64,000 bases of DNA from an uncultured Paracoccaceae bacterium (lineage in GTDB: Bacteria; Pseudomonadota; Alphaproteobacteria; Rhodobacterales; Rhodobacteraceae), in NCBI GenBank assembly GCA_947503765.1, contig CANNFA010000008.1, positions 62,001 to 126,000 of the forward strand. Reading direction: 5' to 3'. The notes under the pieces are model-generated. The model made no database searches and was not told the origin of the DNA. It worked only from the letters and a program-made list of their open reading frames with translations. Positions 17,461-29,088 of this stretch are shown here, one piece after another. The first letter of the stretch is position 1, and the number at the start of each line of letters is the position of its first letter. The translations under genes and the position numbers were made by a program.

Positions 17461-18120
17461 TCAAACCCTGCTCATGGCACCGCCGAAACGCGGATGTTCG
17501 TGCGCGCCCGCAGCGGCGCGGCTGTCCAGCAGGTCCAGCACATCGTCAAGCGCCTCTGCCGCGCGATCCCAGCGCCGCTCCTGCGGGCCGCCAAGCTGCC
17601 GGTCCATCGCCATCGTCGCCGCGCCGTGCAGCGTGAACCAGACCGTCCGCGCCAGCGCATCGGACGCCGGTGCAGCGGCAGCCCTGTCCGGCAGTGCCGC
17701 ATCGAGGTTCCGGGCGATCGGGCGGATCGCGATGTCGAACAGGTCGATCCCGGAGCCGCCGGTGTCGTGGTCCGGCGCGAAGATCAGCCGGTAGATCGCC
17801 GGGCTTTCCCGTGCAAGCCCGAGGATCCGCCTGCCGCCATCGCGGATGCGCTGCATGGGCGGGGTGCCGGGTGCCTCCGTATCGGTTGCGATCAGGATCC
17901 GGCCATCGGCGGAAAGATCGTGGACGGCCTGCATGCGCGCCTGCTCAAGCAGATCGCCCTTGCTGCGGAAATGGGCATAGAGCGCGGGCGCGCTGCACCC
18001 GATCCGCCGCGCCAGGACCGACAGCGACAGGCTTCCGGGGGTGCCGCGCAACAGCGCAAGGGACTCGGAAATCGCACGTCCCTTGATATCGATGGCGTCT
18101 TCTTTCTTCGGCCGGGCCAT
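17461..18120 (-). CDS. TetR/AcrR family transcriptional regulator
   Basis: N-terminal HTH LSLSVLARRIGCSAPALYAHFRSKGDLLEQA; divergent from the sugar cluster. Confidence 0.87.
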   Translation of the reverse strand: MARPKKEDAIDIKGRAISESLALLRGTPGSLSLSVLARRIGCSAPALYAHFRSKGDLLEQARMQAVHDLSADGRILIATDTEAPGTPPMQRIRDGGRRILGLARESPAIYRLIFAPDHDTGGSGIDLFDIAIRPIARNLDAALPDRAAAAPASDALARTVWFTLHGAATMAMDRQLGGPQERRWDRAAEALDDVLDLLDSRAAAGAHEHPRFGGAMSRV

Positions 18121-18196
18121 GAAGAAATCCGGTGTTTTTCGCGGGCCGCCATGCCCCGAGGCGCCGAATGCGCGCGGGGCGGCGTCGCCCATACCG

Positions 18197-18209
18197 CCAT
18201 AACCTATGG
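18197..18209. promoter_or_regulatory. Candidate operator palindrome CCATAACCTATGG in the TetR divergent promoter region
   Basis: Perfect 5-bp arms (CCATA/TATGG) with 3-nt spacer between divergent tetR and isomerase genes. Confidence 0.35.
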
Positions 18210-18357
18210 TTCCGCGGCATCTTTGAAACCCGTCGAACGCAATATGTGATCGGACCGGCAGGAATTCTCCGACGCGGCCGGGGGTGCGGGGCCGATGGAC
18301 GCGCGCGGCCGGACATGGTTTATCGGTACGCGCGAGATCACGGCAGGAAGGAACGCC

Positions 18358-19335
18358 ATGACCGGCACGCTGCACAACCGTCCGCGCTATGCCGCGCGGC
18401 TGAATGCGTTCAAGCGCAAGGGCGGCGGCATCGCCGACATGATCGCGGCCGCCGGCCGGGTCGGCGGGCTGGATGCGGCCGATCTGAACTATCCCGACCA
18501 TTTCGACGGCCAGACAGCGGCCGGCCTGTCGCGGATGCTGGCCGATCAGGGCATGGCGGCGAACGGGCTGGCGATGCGCTATTACACTGAGGCCGAATTC
18601 GCCATCGGCGCCTTCACCAATCCCGACCCGGCCATCCGCCGCGCCGCCATCGACCTGACGAAACGCGGCATCGACGCGGCGGCGGAGATGGGCGCGCCGC
18701 TGATGACGCTGTGGATGGGGCAGGACGGGTTCGACTATGCGTTCCAGCTTGATTACGCCGCCGCCTGGGATGCCACCATCGCCGCCCTGCAGGAGGTCGC
18801 GGATCATAACCCCGCTGTCGCCATATCCATCGAGTACAAGCCGAACGAGCCGCGCGCCTTCGCGCTGATGCCCGATATCGGCACGACGCTGCTGGGCGTG
18901 ACGGAGGCAGATCGTCCCAACCTGGGCGTGACGCTGGATTTCGCGCATGTGCTTTATGCCGACGAGATGCCGGCCCATTCCGCGCGGCTGGTCGACCGGC
19001 ATTCGCGGCTGCTGGGGGTGCATCTGAACGACGGCTACGGCAAGCGCGATGACGGGCTGATGGTGGGAACGGTGCATCCCGTGCAGACGGTGGAGCTGTT
19101 CGTGGAACTGTCGCGCATCGGCTATGATGGCGTGATCTATTTCGACACCTTCCCCGATCAGTCCGGCCTGTCGCCGGTGGAAGAGGCGCGCACCAATATC
19201 GAGATCGCGGAACGCCTGCGCGCGCTGGCCGGGCCGCTGGCGCGGGATGGGGCGCTGGCGGCGGCGATTGCCCGGCAGGACGCGGCGGAAAGCCAGCGGA
19301 TCGTGGCCCGCGCGCTCTATGGCGGCGCGGCATGA
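18358..19335 (+). CDS. Sugar phosphate isomerase/epimerase family (xylose-isomerase-like TIM barrel)
   Basis: TIM-barrel isomerase features ISIEYKPNEPRAF, VTLDFAHVLY, VHLNDGYGKRDDGLMVGTVHP. Confidence 0.8.
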   Translation: MTGTLHNRPRYAARLNAFKRKGGGIADMIAAAGRVGGLDAADLNYPDHFDGQTAAGLSRMLADQGMAANGLAMRYYTEAEFAIGAFTNPDPAIRRAAIDLTKRGIDAAAEMGAPLMTLWMGQDGFDYAFQLDYAAAWDATIAALQEVADHNPAVAISIEYKPNEPRAFALMPDIGTTLLGVTEADRPNLGVTLDFAHVLYADEMPAHSARLVDRHSRLLGVHLNDGYGKRDDGLMVGTVHPVQTVELFVELSRIGYDGVIYFDTFPDQSGLSPVEEARTNIEIAERLRALAGPLARDGALAAAIARQDAAESQRIVARALYGGAA

Positions 19336-20228
19336 GCGGGGTCTTCGTCGTCGGCGCGCTGCACTGGGACGTCGTGGTCGATGCGCCCCACCTGCCAAGG
19401 CTGGACGAGACGGTGACGGGGCGCGCCGTCGCCTACCGGTTCGGCGGCAAGGGCGGCAATCAGGCGGTGGCCGCCGCGCGCTTCGGCGCCTCTGCGGCGA
19501 TGGCCGGGCGGGTCGGCGGCGATGCCTTCGGCGAGAACATGCTACGCGTGCTGGATGCCGCCGGGGTCGACCGGATCCAGGTGCGCGTGGTGGACGGCGC
19601 TTCGGGGATGAGCGTGGCGATCACCGATGCCAATGCCGGCTATGGCGCCGTGATCGTGTCGGGCGTCAATGCCGGGATCGTGCCACATCAGATCGAGGTG
19701 CCGCGTGATACAGGTGTACTGCTGCTGCAGAACGAGATCCCAGAGCCGGTGAACCTTGCAGTGGCGCAAAAGGCGCCCGAGCAGACGCTGGTGATCCTGA
19801 ACGCGGCCCCGGCGCGGCCGGTGGATGCGCGCCTGCTGGAGCGGGTGGATGTGCTGGTGGTCAACCGCGTCGAGGCTGCGGTGCTGACCGGGCAGGATCC
19901 CGAAACAACGGATACCGAGGCGGCGCTGGCCGCGCTACGGCGCATGGGGCCGGGGGCGGTGATCGTGACCCTTGGCAGCGACGGGCTGATCGGGGCGGGG
20001 CCTGAAGGGCGCGTGTTCCGGCGGCGCGCGCATGCGGTCAAGGCGATGTCGACCCACGGGGCGGGGGATGCCTTCATCGGCGCGCTGGCGGCGGACCTGG
20101 TACAGGGCGCGGCGCTGGCGCCGGCCTGCGATTTCGCGCAGGCCGCCGCGGCGCTGGTGGTCGCCACCGATCCCGCGCGGCGCGAGCGGTTGACGCGAGC
20201 CGATGTGGCGGCGTTCCGGGGCGGATAG
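19332..20228 (+). CDS. PfkB/ribokinase family sugar kinase
   Basis: FGGKGGNQAVAAARFG and STHGAGDAFIGALAADL motifs; ATGA overlap with the upstream gene. Confidence 0.9.
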   Translation: MSGVFVVGALHWDVVVDAPHLPRLDETVTGRAVAYRFGGKGGNQAVAAARFGASAAMAGRVGGDAFGENMLRVLDAAGVDRIQVRVVDGASGMSVAITDANAGYGAVIVSGVNAGIVPHQIEVPRDTGVLLLQNEIPEPVNLAVAQKAPEQTLVILNAAPARPVDARLLERVDVLVVNRVEAAVLTGQDPETTDTEAALAALRRMGPGAVIVTLGSDGLIGAGPEGRVFRRRAHAVKAMSTHGAGDAFIGALAADLVQGAALAPACDFAQAAAALVVATDPARRERLTRADVAAFRGG

Positions 20229-20253
20229 GCCGCCCGCCGACCCGCCCGCCGCC

Positions 20254-21096
20254 TTATACGTCCAGCGAATAGAACTCCGCCGCGGTGCCGCCGAACACCC
20301 TTGCGCGTTCGGCGCCGGACAAACCTGCGGTCAGCGCCTCGGCGGCTTCGCGCCAAGCGTCGTATTCGCAGACCAGCCGCACCACCGGCCAGTCCGACCC
20401 CCACATCACCCGGTCGGGGCCGAACACCGTCAGGACATGCTCGGCATAGGGGCGCAGCGCCTCGACCGTCCAGTCGCCATCGGTTTCGGTCACGATCCCC
20501 GACAGCTTGCAGTAGGCGTCGGTGTCGTCGGCGATCTTCTTCATCCCGTCGGCCCAGAAGCGGAAATTCTCGTCCGAATGATCGCGGATCTGCGGTTTCA
20601 TGCAGTGATCCACGACCGTCTTCATCTGCGGATAGCGCGTCAGGATCTGGTGGAAATTCGCCAGGTGGCGCGGGAAACCCAGCGCGTCGAAGGTCAGGCC
20701 CAGTTCCGCCAGCGCGCCGTAGGCCCATTGCACGTCGTCCCGCAGCATCCAGTCGTCATCGGGGATGTCCTGGATCATCGGCCGCACGCCCTTGAATTTC
20801 GGGTGCTTGGCCAGCCGTTCCAGATGCGCGCGGTGCTCGGGCCGCTCGAAGTCGACCCAGCCGACGACACCGGCGATATGCGGCGTCGCATCGGCGAGGC
20901 CCAGCATGTACTCGGTCTCTTCCACCGTCGGGGCGGCCTGCACCAGAACCGTATGGTCGATCCGGTGCGCCGCGCGGGCCGCATCCAGATCGGCGGGGAA
21001 ATAGGTGCGGGCCAGCGTCGCGTTGTCCATCGGCATCCAGCCGTAATCGCCCCGTGCGGGGTTCCAGAAATGCTGGTGCGCATCCACCTGTGCCAT
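20254..21096 (-). CDS. Amidohydrolase family protein (aldonolactonase / dicarboxylate lactonase-like)
   Basis: VDAHQHFWNPARGDYGWM, DHCMKPQI, VMWGSDWPV motifs (PF04909 family). Confidence 0.85.
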   Translation of the reverse strand: MAQVDAHQHFWNPARGDYGWMPMDNATLARTYFPADLDAARAAHRIDHTVLVQAAPTVEETEYMLGLADATPHIAGVVGWVDFERPEHRAHLERLAKHPKFKGVRPMIQDIPDDDWMLRDDVQWAYGALAELGLTFDALGFPRHLANFHQILTRYPQMKTVVDHCMKPQIRDHSDENFRFWADGMKKIADDTDAYCKLSGIVTETDGDWTVEALRPYAEHVLTVFGPDRVMWGSDWPVVRLVCEYDAWREAAEALTAGLSGAERARVFGGTAAEFYSLDV

Positions 21097-21098
21097 GG

Positions 21099-22136
21099 TC
21101 AAGCCTCCTGTCCGGTCGGGGCGTCCTTGCGCATCAGCCCCTCTGCCTTCAAATCCTGCCACAGTGCGGCGGGGATGTCCGCGCGCACCGCAGCCAGGTT
21201 CGATTCCATCTCGGCCACGCCCTGCCCGCCGGGGATCACCGAGACCACGGCGGGATGCAGCAGCGGAAAGCGGAACGCGGCATCCACAAGGCGCACGTCG
21301 TGGCGGGTGCAGACCGCCTCGATCCGGCGCACGCGGTCCAGGATCTCTGGCGGGGCGGGGTCGTAGTTGTAGTACGCCCCCTCGCGCGGGCCGGTGGCGA
21401 GGATGCCCGAATTGTACGGCCCGCCGATCACGATGCCGATGCCCTGTCGCTCGCAGAGCGGCAGGAAGCTGTCCAGCGCCTCCTGCTCCAGCAGGGTATA
21501 GCGCCCGGCCAGCAGGAACAGGTCGAAATCGCCGCGCTCGGCAAGCCATTGCGCGGGCTGCCATTCGTTGATCCCCGCGCCGAACGCGCCGATCACGCCC
21601 TGGTCGCGCAGCTCGCTGAGCGCGCGGTAGCCGCCCTCCATGAACTCGGCCAGCCTTGCATCCAGCGCCTCCTGGGTGCGGTGGTTGAACAGGTCCAGAT
21701 CGTGGGCATAAAGGATATCGACCCGCGACACGCCCAGCCGTTCCAGCGAGAAGTCGAGGCTGCGCATCACGCCGTCATAGCCGTAATCGTAGACTTCCTG
21801 CCGGGCGGGCACGTCGAACCACTTGTCCCTGCCGTCGCGTTCCTCTGGCGGGCAGGCGCGCAGAAGCCGGCCGACCTTGGTGGACAGCACGTATTCGCCG
21901 CGCGGCTTGCCGCGCAGGAACCGGTTGATCCGCGTTTCCGACAGCCCCAGCCCGTAAAGCGGCGCAGTGTCGTAGTACCGCGCGCCGTTCTGCCAGGCGA
22001 TGTTCAGCAGATCGTCCACCTCGGTATCGGTGACCGCCCGGTAGAGATTGCCGATCGGCGCGCCGCCAAAGCCCATTTCCGTGAAGGTCAGCCCGCCCGT
22101 TCCGCGCCTGTCCCAGTGCCGTGTCGCGATGGTCAT
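21099..22136 (-). CDS. Aldo/keto reductase (aldose 1-dehydrogenase-like)
   Basis: GFGGAPIGNLYRAVTD, YYDTAPLYGLGLSE, AKR fold; adjacent to lactonase-like gene. Confidence 0.88.
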   Translation of the reverse strand: MTIATRHWDRRGTGGLTFTEMGFGGAPIGNLYRAVTDTEVDDLLNIAWQNGARYYDTAPLYGLGLSETRINRFLRGKPRGEYVLSTKVGRLLRACPPEERDGRDKWFDVPARQEVYDYGYDGVMRSLDFSLERLGVSRVDILYAHDLDLFNHRTQEALDARLAEFMEGGYRALSELRDQGVIGAFGAGINEWQPAQWLAERGDFDLFLLAGRYTLLEQEALDSFLPLCERQGIGIVIGGPYNSGILATGPREGAYYNYDPAPPEILDRVRRIEAVCTRHDVRLVDAAFRFPLLHPAVVSVIPGGQGVAEMESNLAAVRADIPAALWQDLKAEGLMRKDAPTGQEA

Positions 22137-22359
22137 CGGTCCCTCCCTGTTGGTCCGCCGCGCGGGTTCGGGGTGACGTTAGTGCAGGATGCGGCGGGAT
22201 GGAACAGCCCGGTGCCGGACATGCCGTGCGCCGCCGCATAACGTCTTGCGTTCGGCGGATCGGGCGGTAGGCTCGGCCGAAATCGGGAGGATACGGGATG
22301 AGCAGGCGCAGACAGCTCTTTGGCAACCGCAAGTCGGGGATCGCCAAAGGGGGCGGGAC

Positions 22360-23478
22360 ATGACCGGCCCCGAGACGCAGGAGCGGCAGGGCCGGCTGGC
22401 GCGCGATCTGGCCGACCTGATGCTGGTGCCGGGCCTGTCGGGCCACGAGGACCGCGTGCGCCGGGCCATCGCCGGCAAGCTGTCCGAGGACGGGATCGAC
22501 AGCCGCTCGGACCGGCTGGGCAACCTGATTGCGACATTCGAGGGGGCGGAAGACGCGCCTTCGGTCATGCTTTTTACACATATGGATCAATTGGGATTCA
22601 TTGTGCGAAAAGTGGAAGAGGACGGGTTGATCCGGGTCGAGCGGCTTGGCGGCGTGCCCGAGCGCGCGCTTGCCTCGCAGCCGGTGCTGCTGTGCGGTGC
22701 CAAGGGAGACGTGGCGGGGATCATCTACAACAAGGCGCATCACGCCACCCAGCCGGACGAGAAGTTCACCGTCACCAAGACCCCCGATCTGCGGATCGAC
22801 ACCGGCCACGGATCGAAAGCGGCGGTCGAGGCGGCGGGGATCGCGATCGGAACGCCGGTGGTCTACCGGCCGCACGTCCTGCCGCTGGCGAACGGGCGCA
22901 TAGCAGGCACCAGCGTCGACGACCGTGCCGGCTGTGCCGTGCTGGTCGAGGTGGCGCGCGCCATGGCGGCGCGGGAAGGCGGGCCGACCGTGCATGTCGT
23001 GTTCACGACGCAAGAGGAATTCAACCTGCGCGGCGCCCAGGTCGCGGCGCAGACGCTGAAGCCCGATATCGCTGTGCAGATCGACATCATGCTGACCAGC
23101 GACACCCCAGAAATGGCCGACCGCGGCGAGATGCTGCTTGGCGGCGGGCCGGGGATCAGCCTTTATTCCTTCCACGGGCGCGGCACGCTGAACGGCGTGA
23201 TCCCGCACCCGTCGGCCGTGCGGCTGATGGAGGATACCGCGGCCGCCGAGGGCCTGACGCTGCAACGATCCGCACAAGTCGGCGTATTGACGGATCTGTC
23301 CTATGTGCAGCTCGTGGGCGAGGGGGTTGTCGCGATAGATGCGGGATTCCCGATGCGCTATTCCCATTCCAGCCTTGAAATGTGCGATCTGTCCGATCTG
23401 GAGGGGCTGACGCAATTGCTGATCGCGGCGGCGGCGCGGATCGGGCCGGATTTCGACCTCCTGAGGGACGGCGCATGA
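22360..23478 (+). CDS. M42 family metallopeptidase (FrvX-like)
   Basis: HMDQLGFIV, SVDDRAGCAVLVE, TTQEEFNLRGAQVAA, SHSSLEM motifs. Confidence 0.87.
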   Translation: MTGPETQERQGRLARDLADLMLVPGLSGHEDRVRRAIAGKLSEDGIDSRSDRLGNLIATFEGAEDAPSVMLFTHMDQLGFIVRKVEEDGLIRVERLGGVPERALASQPVLLCGAKGDVAGIIYNKAHHATQPDEKFTVTKTPDLRIDTGHGSKAAVEAAGIAIGTPVVYRPHVLPLANGRIAGTSVDDRAGCAVLVEVARAMAAREGGPTVHVVFTTQEEFNLRGAQVAAQTLKPDIAVQIDIMLTSDTPEMADRGEMLLGGGPGISLYSFHGRGTLNGVIPHPSAVRLMEDTAAAEGLTLQRSAQVGVLTDLSYVQLVGEGVVAIDAGFPMRYSHSSLEMCDLSDLEGLTQLLIAAAARIGPDFDLLRDGA

Positions 23479-24980
23479 CCTATACGCTGGGGATCGACAT
23501 CGGCACCTATCAATCCAAGGGCGTGCTGGTCGACGGCAGCGGCAACATCGTCGCCGAGGCGCGGGTTCCGCATGAAATGATCGTGCCGCGCCCCGGCTGG
23601 GCGGAACACCGCGCCGACGAGGATTGGTGGGACAATTTCAAGGCGATCACGCGCGAGATTCTGGCCACCGCGAAGGCCAGCGGCATCGACCCGGCCGAAA
23701 TCGCCTGTATCGGCACCAGCGGCATCGGCCCCTGCATGCTGCCGGTGGACAAGGATGGCACGCCGCTGATGAACGCGGTGCTCTACGGCGTCGACAGCCG
23801 CGCCGGCGCCGAGATCGAGGAACTGACCGCCCGGATCGGCGAGGACACGATCATGGCGCGCTGCGGCAACGCGCTGACCTCGCAATCGGTGGGGCCCAAG
23901 ATCCTGTGGCTGGCGCGCAACCGGCCCGAGATCTTCGCGCGCACGGCGCAGGTGCTGAACTCCACCAGCTACCTGACCTATCGGCTGACGGGCGAATACA
24001 CGGTCGACCATTATACCGCCGCCAATTTCACCCCGCTCTATGATGTCAACGCGCAGGACTGGGCCGCCGACCTGGCCGAGGGGATCGTGCCGCTGGACCG
24101 GCTGCCAAGGCTGCTGTGGTCGACCGAGATCGCAGGCCATGTGACCGCCGCCGCCGCCGCCGAGACGGGGCTGGCCGAGGGAACGCCGGTGACCGCCGGC
24201 ACCATCGACGCCGCCGCCGAGGCGGTCAGCGTCGGTGTGCGCCGCCCCGGCGACATGATGATGATGTACGGCTCGACCGTGTTCATCATCCAGGTCACGG
24301 CCGAACGGGTGAACGACGCGCGGCTGTGGTATGCGCCCTGGCTTTACCCCGGCGCGCATGCCTCGATGGCGGGGCTGGCCACGTCGGGCACGCTGACCCA
24401 CTGGTTCCGCGACCGGTTCGCCCGCGAATTGCCGCGAGAGACGGCGTTCGAGGCGCTGTCGGCAGAGGCTGCCGCCTCGCCCCCCGGCGCGAACGGGGTG
24501 CTGATGCTGCCCTATTTCGCGGGCGAGCGGACACCGATCCACGACCCGTATGCCAAGGGCGCCTTTTTCGGCCTGAACCTCACGCATACGCGCGGCGACC
24601 TGTTCCGCGCGCTGATCGAAGGGATCGCCAGCGGCACCGCGCATGTGTTCGAGACCTATGCCGAGGTCGGCGCGCCGCCCAAGCGGATCCTCGCGGTGGG
24701 CGGCGGCACCAACAATCCGGTCTGGCTGCAATCGACGTCCGATTATGGCGGGCTGCCGCAGATCGTCTGCGAAAAGACCGTGGGCGCGTCCTATGGCGAT
24801 GCCTTCCTGGCCGCCTGCGCGGTGGGGCGGGCGGCCCCCGATGACATCGAGGCGTGGAACCCCGCGGTGCGCACCGTCACGCCAGAGGATCACCCGGTGG
24901 TCAAACGGCAATACGCGCTGTTCAAGCGGCTGCACGGCCAGACCCGCGACATCGCGCGGGAACTGGACGGGCTGTCGTGA
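23475..24980 (+). CDS. FGGY-family carbohydrate kinase
   Basis: GIDIGTYQSKGVLVD, GTSGIGPCMLPVD, ILAVGGGTNNPVWLQ motifs; ATGA overlap. Confidence 0.9.
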   Translation: MTYTLGIDIGTYQSKGVLVDGSGNIVAEARVPHEMIVPRPGWAEHRADEDWWDNFKAITREILATAKASGIDPAEIACIGTSGIGPCMLPVDKDGTPLMNAVLYGVDSRAGAEIEELTARIGEDTIMARCGNALTSQSVGPKILWLARNRPEIFARTAQVLNSTSYLTYRLTGEYTVDHYTAANFTPLYDVNAQDWAADLAEGIVPLDRLPRLLWSTEIAGHVTAAAAAETGLAEGTPVTAGTIDAAAEAVSVGVRRPGDMMMMYGSTVFIIQVTAERVNDARLWYAPWLYPGAHASMAGLATSGTLTHWFRDRFARELPRETAFEALSAEAAASPPGANGVLMLPYFAGERTPIHDPYAKGAFFGLNLTHTRGDLFRALIEGIASGTAHVFETYAEVGAPPKRILAVGGGTNNPVWLQSTSDYGGLPQIVCEKTVGASYGDAFLAACAVGRAAPDDIEAWNPAVRTVTPEDHPVVKRQYALFKRLHGQTRDIARELDGLS

Positions 24981-25011
24981 CCCGGCGCCCGGACGCGGCC
25001 CGGGACACACC

Positions 25012-25569
25012 ATGATGCAGGACCGGTTGCAGACCGCGCTGGCCGAACTCGGCGCCGCCCTGTCCGGTATCGACGCGGGCGAGGTGGAAACCGCCTGCGA
25101 CCGGATCGCGGGCGCGCGGCGCATCGTGCTCTATGGCTGCGGCCGCGAGGGGCTGATGATGCGCGGCCTGGCGATGCGGCTCTATCACCTGGGGCTGGAT
25201 GCGCATGTGCAGGGAGAGATGGGGACGCCGCCCGTGGGGCCGGGCGATCTGCTGATCGTCTCGGCCGGGCCGGGGGAACTGGCCACCGTCACCGCCCTGA
25301 TGCGCGTCGCGCAGGAGGCCGGCGCCGGCGTGCTGTTCCTGACGGCGAGGCCGGATACGGCCAGCGCCGCGCTGGCCGAAATGATCCTCACGATCCCCGC
25401 CCAGACCATGGCAAGCGACCGCTCCGGCGCGGCCAGCGCGGTGCTGCCGATGGGTTCGGTCTATGAAGGCGCGATGTTCGTGCTGTTCGAGATCGTGATC
25501 GACATGCTGCGCACCCGGCTGGGCGTGACCCCCGAGGCGATGCGCGCCAACCACACCAATCTGGAGTGA
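25012..25569 (+). CDS. SIS-domain sugar isomerase (6-phospho-3-hexuloisomerase-like)
   Basis: RIVLYGCGREGLMMRGLAMRLYHLGL... GDLLIVSAGPGE ... typical SIS fold. Confidence 0.8.
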   Translation: MMQDRLQTALAELGAALSGIDAGEVETACDRIAGARRIVLYGCGREGLMMRGLAMRLYHLGLDAHVQGEMGTPPVGPGDLLIVSAGPGELATVTALMRVAQEAGAGVLFLTARPDTASAALAEMILTIPAQTMASDRSGAASAVLPMGSVYEGAMFVLFEIVIDMLRTRLGVTPEAMRANHTNLE

Positions 25570-25572
25570 AAG

Positions 25573-26310
25573 ATGCGCTATGAGATGATGCTGCCGCACC
25601 AGATTCGCGCCGCGATCGCCGCGAATACGCCGGTGATCCTGCCGCTGGGGGTGCTGGAATACCATGGCGAGCATATGGCCGTGGGCATGGACACGCTGGC
25701 CGTGACACGCATCTTCGACCGGCTGGAGCAGGAGATGGATCTGGTGATCCTGCCGCCCTTTGCCTATGGCGCGGCCAGCCATGCGGTGCGCGGTCCCGAA
25801 GGCGGCACGCTGCATGTCGATGCCGGCCGCATCGCGCCGCTGGCCGAGGAGATGTTCCATTCCCTGCTGCGGATCGGGTTTCGCAACATCCACGGCTTCG
25901 TGCATCACCAGACGGAGAACTTCGTGGCCGGGATGCCGACCGATCTGGCCTTCCGCTTCGCCGGGCGGCAGGCGGTGTTCCGGTTCCTCGAGGCGGAACG
26001 CGGCGAGGGCTGGTGGGGCAGCGGGCAGATGCAGGATTACTACGACCAGCACGAGGCGGGGACCGATCCGTTCAACTGGGTGCGGGTGCATCCGCTGATG
26101 GACGAGGGCATCACCGCCCGCTACCCGTTCGATCATGCCGGGATCGGGGAAACCTCGCTGATGCTGGCGCTGGCGCCCGACGCGGTGGACCGGGACCGGC
26201 TGGCCGAGAACGACACCTGGTATACCGAAAGCGCGGTGGAGGCGACGGCGGAGCTGGGCGAGCAAGGCTGCGCGATGATCATGGAGAGGCTGCGGCGCCT
26301 GCTGGGCTGA
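25573..26310 (+). CDS. Creatininase family protein
   Basis: VILPLGVLEYHGEHMAVGMDTLAV and creatininase-like metal-binding residues. Confidence 0.85.
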   Translation: MRYEMMLPHQIRAAIAANTPVILPLGVLEYHGEHMAVGMDTLAVTRIFDRLEQEMDLVILPPFAYGAASHAVRGPEGGTLHVDAGRIAPLAEEMFHSLLRIGFRNIHGFVHHQTENFVAGMPTDLAFRFAGRQAVFRFLEAERGEGWWGSGQMQDYYDQHEAGTDPFNWVRVHPLMDEGITARYPFDHAGIGETSLMLALAPDAVDRDRLAENDTWYTESAVEATAELGEQGCAMIMERLRRLLG

Positions 26311-28090: not shown

Positions 28091-28525
28091 ATGAACACCA
28101 TGTTCAAACTCACGGCGCTTTCCCTGCTGCTTGGCAGCGTTGCCTCCGTCGCCTCCGCGCGGGATGCCGATTTCCGGCAGCTCGACACCAATGACGACGG
28201 CTATGTCGACCAGGCCGAGCTCGAATCCTATTTCGGGACCGAGGCCGCGCAGTCGATTCTCGGCCGCGACGACGCGGACGGCGACAATCGCCTGTCGCGG
28301 GACGAGGCAATCGCGGCGGATAACCGCGACGACGATCCGAACGATCCCGATGACGACGACGATCTGGACAACCCCGACGACGATGTCGAGGTCGAGCTGG
28401 ACGACGACCCGAACGATCCCGAGGACGACGATGACGACGATGATCGTGATGACGACGATGATGACGATGACCGGGATGACGACCGGGACGACAACGACGA
28501 CGACGATGACGACGACGATGATTGA
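28091..28525 (+). CDS. Secreted EF-hand protein with poly-Asp C-terminal tail
   Basis: Signal peptide; EF-hand loops DTNDDGYVDQAE and DADGDNRLSRDE; ~65-residue Asp-rich tail. Confidence 0.8.
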   Translation: MNTMFKLTALSLLLGSVASVASARDADFRQLDTNDDGYVDQAELESYFGTEAAQSILGRDDADGDNRLSRDEAIAADNRDDDPNDPDDDDDLDNPDDDVEVELDDDPNDPEDDDDDDDRDDDDDDDDRDDDRDDNDDDDDDDDD

Positions 28526-28565
28526 GCCGGGCGGCGCACCGCGCCGGACCTGACCGGGCACCACC

Positions 28566-28600
28566 GCCGGATCCGCGCCGAAACGCGGGTCCGGCCTTTT
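28566..28600 (+). terminator. Rho-independent terminator after the EF-hand gene
   Basis: GCCGGATCCGCG/CGCGGGTCCGGC 12-bp stem (one G-T) followed by CTTTT. Confidence 0.75.
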
Positions 28601-28611
28601 CGGGCATTGAA

Positions 28612-29088
28612 ATGACACGAATGTTCCAGACCTTCGTATTCGGCGCCGCGCTGGCGCTTGCCACGCTTCCGGCTGCGGCGCAGGCCGGGCCTGTCGAGGA
28701 CAGCGTGATCCGGCAATTGCGCGCGCAGGGCTTCTCGCGGATCGAGGTTGCGCGCACCATGCTGGGCCGCGTGCGCATCGTCGCGCGCTCTGCAGAGCTG
28801 GAGCGCGAGATCATCGTCGACCCGCGCACCGGCGAAATCCTGCGCGACTATTGGGCGGAACACGGCGACCGGCGGCCGGGGGGATTGCTCGACCCGACCG
28901 GCAACGGCGATAACGCGGATGATGGCGATGACGGCGACACCGGCGATGTCGGGGACGAAGGCGATGACGACAACGACAACGATGACAACGACAACGATGA
29001 CGACGACGGCGATGACGACGACGGCGATGACGACGATGACGATGGCGGGGACGATGATGGCGACGGCGGCGACGATGGCGACGACTGA
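28612..29088 (+). CDS. Secreted PepSY-like protein with Asp/Gly-rich C-terminal tail
   Basis: Signal peptide; PepSY-like VEDSVIRQLRAQGFSRIEVARTMLGRVRIVA...REIIVDPRTGEILRDYW; acidic tail. Confidence 0.75.
   Translation: MTRMFQTFVFGAALALATLPAAAQAGPVEDSVIRQLRAQGFSRIEVARTMLGRVRIVARSAELEREIIVDPRTGEILRDYWAEHGDRRPGGLLDPTGNGDNADDGDDGDTGDVGDEGDDDNDNDDNDNDDDDGDDDDGDDDDDDGGDDDGDGGDDGDD

Follow-up and report, generated by a model that had tools for sequence, protein, structure and literature searches.

Which sugar do nine neighboring genes of an uncultured Paracoccaceae bacterium serve, and do they serve it as one pathway? The genes lie at positions 17,461 to 26,310 of the stretch of contig CANNFA010000008.1 analysed here (64,000 nucleotides, the window). 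They encode a TetR-family regulator, a xylose-isomerase-like barrel protein (TIM), a ribokinase-like kinase (PfkB), a lactonase-like amidohydrolase (AmdH), an aldo-keto reductase (AKR), a metal-dependent hydrolase (M42), a ketose-type kinase (FGGY), a hexuloisomerase-like protein (SIS) and a creatininase-family protein (CRN). The open reading frames, start codons and domains of the nine genes were checked, with profile comparison against Pfam and NCBIfam. The genes, families, coordinates and the TIM/PfkB and M42/FGGY overlaps proved to be as the first-pass annotation of this DNA had given them, and it was right in describing a sugar-catabolic block that combines an oxidative aldose arm, kinases and isomerases. 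Gene content, conserved synteny, catalytic motifs and the genomic place of the missing parts could all be observed directly. We propose that these genes make up the core of a catabolic cluster, conserved and modular in build, through which an L-fucose-type aldose is degraded by two exits; the sugar would be L-fucose itself, one related to it or a derivative. The chances of this reading being right and wrong we consider about equal.

Conservation and modular build of the cluster

The grouping is not by chance: the orthologues co-occur and are syntenic across many genera. Co-occurrence was counted in 150 Rhodobacteraceae genomes, with tests that ignore shared ancestry. M42 orthologues (57-80%) were found in 25 of these, the source genome included. 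M42 occurs together with FGGY in 23 genomes (4.3 expected, p=1e-21), with AKR in 22 (5.7 expected, p=7e-15) and with TIM in 17 (3.3 expected, p=1e-13). Eighty named loci, taken from GTDB genomes of Rhodobacterales, Hyphomicrobiales and a few other groups, were compared for gene order. In 77 of them FGGY directly follows M42, and in 75 the gene immediately upstream of M42 encodes a BtpA/SgcQ-type protein, the order in relatives being AKR (reverse), BtpA (forward), M42 (forward). Among the 56 loci that span more than 19 kb, an ATP-binding cassette (ABC) permease and AKR are each present in 49. The counts for the other genes are 43 (solute-binding protein), 42 (FucU/RbsD mutarotase), 39 (TIM), 38 (lactonase), 36 (ribokinase), 35 (PfkB), 20 (SIS) and 16 (creatininase). 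The closest relatives are metagenome-assembled genomes of Maritimibacter (M42 84% identical). A GntR regulator often precedes TIM in relatives; TetR had no match in the related loci compared.

The cluster is built of three modules: AKR with the lactonase; TIM with PfkB; and BtpA(SgcQ)-M42(SgcX)-FGGY with SIS and the creatininase as options. TIM and PfkB are a separate module. In Sinorhizobium, Paracoccus and Roseibium, their orthologues (56-59% and 46-49%) share an operon with genes for an RpiR regulator and an ABC transporter of the Rbs type. The arrangement is the same in Vibrio, and in Agrobacterium vitis the TIM-PfkB operon comes directly after a set of MalE-type transporter, FucU and RbsK genes. 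In Thermus, Salipiger and Rhizobium, BtpA and FGGY form a further module, together with DeoR, SDR and ABC genes. In the cluster described here, an SgcX-type M42 is added to these two modules. That SIS and CRN are optional is seen in the 78 loci with room to judge (71 with BtpA and 7 without): SIS alone is present in 15, CRN alone in 12 (9 with BtpA, 3 without), both in 9 (7 and 2) and neither in 42 (40 and 2).

The view of the nine genes as one fixed pathway is not supported: 12 of the 150 genomes have AKR but no M42, rhizobia and Vibrio pair TIM-PfkB with a separate Rbs-type transporter, and neither SIS nor the creatininase is always present. Independently distributed sub-operons had been named beforehand as a finding that would refute the first reading; this is partly the case, the modules being separable but strongly associated.

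Uptake and the oxidative arm

No transporter gene lies between TetR and CRN. In relatives, the genes adjoining the block encode a transport system (two permeases, an ATPase and a solute-binding protein of about 550 residues) together with a ribokinase and a mutarotase, which scores higher against L-fucose mutarotase (83.7 bits) than against D-ribose pyranase (31.3 bits). The sole orthologue of the binding protein in the source genome (73%) is on another contig (C9, near 49-51 kb), surrounded by permeases, an ATPase and a FucU-type mutarotase. As this operon is orthologous to the transporter set of relatives, the absence from the block is a matter of local rearrangement rather than a trait of the system. 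Thus the block is transporter-less, as first described, in that uptake is encoded elsewhere (C9), but not in any general sense, a permease being the rule in the larger related loci (49 of 56). A structure model of the binding protein (predicted local distance difference test, pLDDT, 66) matches MalE-type sugar- and oligosaccharide-binding proteins, a generic likeness only. A LacI-type palindrome, GTTAGCGATAAC, is found at C9:50878-50889, before the ABC transporter operon only, and GTTAGCGCTAAC at two sites of contig C1 (40847 and 157835); neither is in the window.

An SGNH/GDSL-type hydrolase gene stands beside the transporter, downstream of the ABC and FucU genes, in 15 related loci (L107, L108, L150 and 12 others); its recurrence may be a pointer to an O-acylated substrate. 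Three Roseobacter loci (L131, L150 and L155) have a sulfatase-like gene at the edge of the cluster, near 1.8-3.4 kb.

The best PDB matches of AKR are L-galactose dehydrogenases, and AmdH has a single PDB match, 4dlf (E 2e-37). AKR orthologues in relatives adjoin FucU, RbsK and ABC transporter genes. In relatives, the genes clustered with AKR and the lactonase include those of an L-fuconate dehydratase (a 550-bit alignment with the solved enzyme), a UxaA-type dehydratase, an SDR and an FAH-type hydrolase. The source genome has an L-fuconate dehydratase (FucD, 59% identity) at C5:151453, and its UxaA, SDR and FAH homologues (58-61%) are grouped at C1:540-547 kb. By homology and context, the AKR-lactonase arm would be the known oxidative L-fucose-type route, and a sugar of like configuration could also be the substrate.

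A set of dehydrogenase, lactonase and dehydratase marks the L-fucose loci of Herbaspirillum and its relatives (PMC11378808). The likeness to that pathway is twofold: an AKR-type aldose dehydrogenase adjoins a COG3618-type lactonase here, and in relatives the cluster further includes FucU, a sugar ABC transporter and the L-fuconate dehydratase, SDR and FAH hydrolase genes. The differences are that the lower enzymes are scattered over the source genome, that the TIM/PfkB/BtpA/M42/FGGY half is additional here, and that the transporter is MalE-type, whereas L-fucose uptake in Herbaspirillum is reported to be Rbs-type (PMC11378808). As we picture it, the C9 operon, with its ABC transporter and FucU-type mutarotase, would serve uptake for the cluster. 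In the oxidative exit, AKR would oxidize the aldose to a lactone and AmdH would open this to the acid; the dehydratase, SDR and FAH hydrolase (C1 and C5) would then cleave the acid to pyruvate and a three-carbon acid.

The SgcX/FGGY half

The M42 protein had been labeled FrvX-like, but its better E. coli match is SgcX (37-38% identity, vs. about 28% to other M42 proteins of E. coli and Enterobacter). Its metal and catalytic residues are in place, with H74, D187, E219, E220, D242 and H336 invariant in 17 sequences, SgcX among them. SgcX occurs together with SgcQ in the sgc operon of E. coli and Salmonella, along with a phosphotransferase system (PTS); among studied proteins, these two, which have no known function, are the nearest to the module. 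By published accounts, the sugar of that operon is unknown and its deletion mutants show no growth defect, including on Biolog carbon panels (PMC5797941; PMC13343008). Like E. coli sgcXBCQAER, the cluster pairs an SgcX-type M42 (37%) with BtpA/SgcQ (46%, in relatives). Unlike it, an FGGY kinase and ABC uptake replace the PTS, an SgcE-like epimerase is absent, and the SgcQ counterpart is missing from the cluster of the source genome. No PTS gene, of the kinds of SgcA, SgcB and SgcC or otherwise, was found in the block or among the conserved neighbors in relatives. What the two would share is a phosphorylating step (by PTS or FGGY) combined with SgcQ and SgcX.

BtpA is absent from the cluster in the window, and the source genome has only paralogues of 45% and 30% on other contigs. 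The 45% paralogue, on C16 (5.8-11.8 kb; L076:5797-11819), has genes for a DapA-like protein and a DeoR regulator as neighbors, which are followed by genes resembling phosphoenolpyruvate mutase and phosphonopyruvate decarboxylase. A structure model of BtpA (pLDDT 83) aligns at template-modeling (TM) scores of about 0.5-0.6 with many TIM barrels of the phosphate-binding type, including tryptophan synthase alpha, HisF, 2-keto-3-deoxy-6-phosphogalactonate (KDPGal) aldolase and dihydropteroate synthase, a set too general for assigning a reaction. Because the modeled fold is that of phosphate-binding TIM barrels, BtpA likely acts on a phosphorylated sugar.

SIS resembles the 6-phospho-3-hexuloisomerase of the ribulose monophosphate pathway (HxlB/YckF) over its full length, and both have H-x-NLE at the C-terminus and a conserved glutamate following PMGS. 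It differs in that the phosphate-site residues are replaced and the cluster has no HxlA partner. Compared with all five PDB relatives, GxGRS has become GCGRE, and SGSGET or SGSGRT at the phosphate site has become SAGPGEL. E46, which takes the place of a phosphate-site serine, is invariant in 17 orthologues. Together with a profile score short of the cut-off for 6-phospho-3-hexuloisomerase (148.1 vs. 160 bits), these changes set SIS apart from that enzyme. Since the phosphate-site serines of hexulose-phosphate isomerases are lost, SIS probably acts on an unphosphorylated, possibly cationic, sugar substrate.

The nearest PDB relatives of CRN are creatininases. As in creatininase, MftE and Thermotoga IolN, the metal ligands and the catalytic His and Glu are kept; E29, H31, D40, H112, E115, H188 and E193 are invariant in 19 orthologues. 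CRN differs from the three in scoring far under their curated cut-offs (82.9/235, 46.3/172 and 43/245 bits, respectively), in having an HHQTEN motif and GWWG in place of the creatininase sequence, and in that the partner genes of all three pathways are absent. A Thermotoga inositol route (IolN/IolO) was rejected on these scores. CRN is present in five of the seven BtpA-less loci (L040/L096, L053/L152, L079, L119 and the window) vs. 16 of the 71 with BtpA (p=0.014, with no correction for relatedness), which hints weakly that CRN lets a cluster do without BtpA.

In the phosphorylative exit, every step of which we infer, as we do the substrate and direction of the cluster as a whole, TIM would convert the aldose to a ketose, and FGGY, PfkB or both would phosphorylate it. 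In most relatives the ketose phosphate would then probably be rearranged or cleaved by the BtpA/SgcQ barrel. The SgcX-type M42 and, where present, SIS and CRN would probably ready a derivatised, unphosphorylated sugar for the kinase.

The SgcX/FGGY half is a conserved, undescribed module; a literature search found no paper on this cluster. The earlier suggestion of an undescribed pathway is partly supported: no described pathway was found for the M42-FGGY-SIS-creatininase half, while the oxidative half is of a known kind. Tentatively, and with somewhat more doubt than belief, we see BtpA/SgcQ, M42 and FGGY as a sugar-processing module in which SgcQ would be a ketose-phosphate lyase or isomerase, SgcX a hydrolase of a sugar derivative rather than a peptidase, and the variant SIS an isomerase of the unphosphorylated sugar. 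If these roles of SgcQ and SgcX are true, the E. coli sgc operon is assigned as well. Culturable alphaproteobacteria (such as Ruegeria arenilitoris, Stappia sediminis and Hoeflea olei; L082, L081 and L109) carry the SgcX and SgcQ families with a sugar kinase in one operon. Next to it they have a transporter dedicated to the cluster and a module recognizable as L-fucose-type oxidation. The context of the cluster cuts the substrate search to a few sugars and offers a genetic system for assigning BtpA and the SgcX-type M42. It also gives a lead on the possible uptake of algal 6-deoxy sugars by Roseobacters.

Competing readings and layout of the block

Several points weigh against a single L-fucose-type cluster with two exits. 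None of the nine proteins reaches an NCBIfam equivalog (substrate-specific) cut-off, the scores in bits being 206.8/400 for AmdH (NF052480, its best model, for L-fucono-1,5-lactonase), 199/299.65 for PfkB (ribokinase), 306/380.25 for FGGY (xylulokinase), 159/412 for M42, and those given above for SIS and CRN (the latter against creatininase). Therefore, the substrate is not directly readable from family scores, and for the assignment to L-fucose we depend on family resemblance and neighborhood. Various aldoses of similar configuration can be substrates of enzymes of the AKR and AmdH families, and the C1 locus holds further sugar-acid genes and may serve other acids. Comparing three promoter regions, those of the window and of the C9 operon, revealed no convincing common motif that could be a shared operator. 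Finally, a BtpA-less cluster means that BtpA is not indispensable unless it has been replaced.

The alternative that survives best is that two unrelated pathways happen to be neighbors: L-fucose oxidation (AKR, AmdH and their remote partners) and the use of another sugar or polyol (TIM, PfkB, M42, FGGY, SIS and CRN). We consider this unlikely, though the independence of the modules is in its favor. Besides the genomes with AKR and no M42, and TIM-PfkB with a transporter of its own, two Maritimibacter loci (L078 and L079) have TIM-PfkB-(BtpA)-M42-FGGY-SIS-CRN without AKR or AmdH, and in rhizobia and Thermus BtpA-FGGY is accompanied by neither M42 nor AKR. Against it stand the excess of genomes that hold both M42 and AKR and the single ABC transporter/FucU/RbsK set common to both halves, for which separate pathways would have no need.

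The first-pass annotation had suggested an N-substituted or otherwise modified sugar. The N-substituted case is taken here. SIS and CRN would then be a hydrolase-isomerase pair acting on an amino- or amide-substituted sugar, with M42 removing the N-linked group. That CRN and M42 retain the metal ligands of amide-hydrolysing families, and that an invariant glutamate replaces the phosphate-site serine of SIS, fit such chemistry. However, creatininase-family enzymes also open carbocycles, as IolN does, no deaminase or aminotransferase is a constant neighbor, and 40 of the 78 loci, about half, have BtpA, M42 and FGGY but neither SIS nor CRN, so that the pair is not central. The proposal thus appears quite improbable. 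The D-apiose route (TIM as apiose isomerase, FGGY as apulose kinase) is hardly credible and was rejected as an orthologous pathway: the TIM barrel is of the fold class of apiose isomerase, isomerase plus FGGY follows a like logic, and in Vibrio nigripulchritudo another FGGY relative (44%) has transketolase-type and RuBisCO-like genes as its neighbors, but FGGY is merely 22.6% identical to E. coli AplK, which largely refutes the idea, transketolase-type apt genes were seen in none of the loci compared, and TIM-PfkB occurs elsewhere without FGGY.

Returning to the block as the proposed core of an L-fucose-type cluster, its layout is given in Table 1. The TIM/PfkB and M42/FGGY pairs overlap by 4 bp (ATGA-type), and the intergenic gaps are 2 bp between AmdH and AKR, 31 bp between FGGY and SIS and 3 bp between SIS and CRN.

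Table 1. Genes of the block, with window positions and profile evidence.
Feature	Position	Strand	Profile evidence
TetR-family regulator	17461..18120	-	PF00440/PF13305, above cut-off
TIM: probable aldose-ketose isomerase with a xylose-isomerase-like barrel	18358..19335	+	PF01261
PfkB: ribokinase-like sugar kinase	19332..20228	+	PF00294
AmdH: L-fucono-1,5-lactonase-like amidohydrolase	20254..21096	-	Amidohydro_2
AKR: aldose 1-dehydrogenase (L-fucose/L-galactose dehydrogenase-like)	21099..22136	-	PF00248
Gap at the BtpA/SgcQ place of most relatives; BtpA missing here	22137..22359	no strand	
M42: SgcX-clade metal-dependent hydrolase	22360..23478	+	PF05343
FGGY: ketose-type kinase	23475..24980	+	PF00370/PF02782
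SIS: 6-phospho-3-hexuloisomerase-like, altered phosphate site	25012..25569	+	TIGR03127, 148.1 bits, below 160
CRN: creatininase-family metal hydrolase	25573..26310	+	PF02633

TIM has the xylose-isomerase-type motif EYKPNEPR with DFAH and DDGLMVG, and its top PDB match is 3ktc (183 bits). Beyond the block, at 28091-29088 of the window, are the genes of two adjacent predicted secreted proteins with very aspartate-rich C-terminal tails, the first of which has EF-hand-like repeats.

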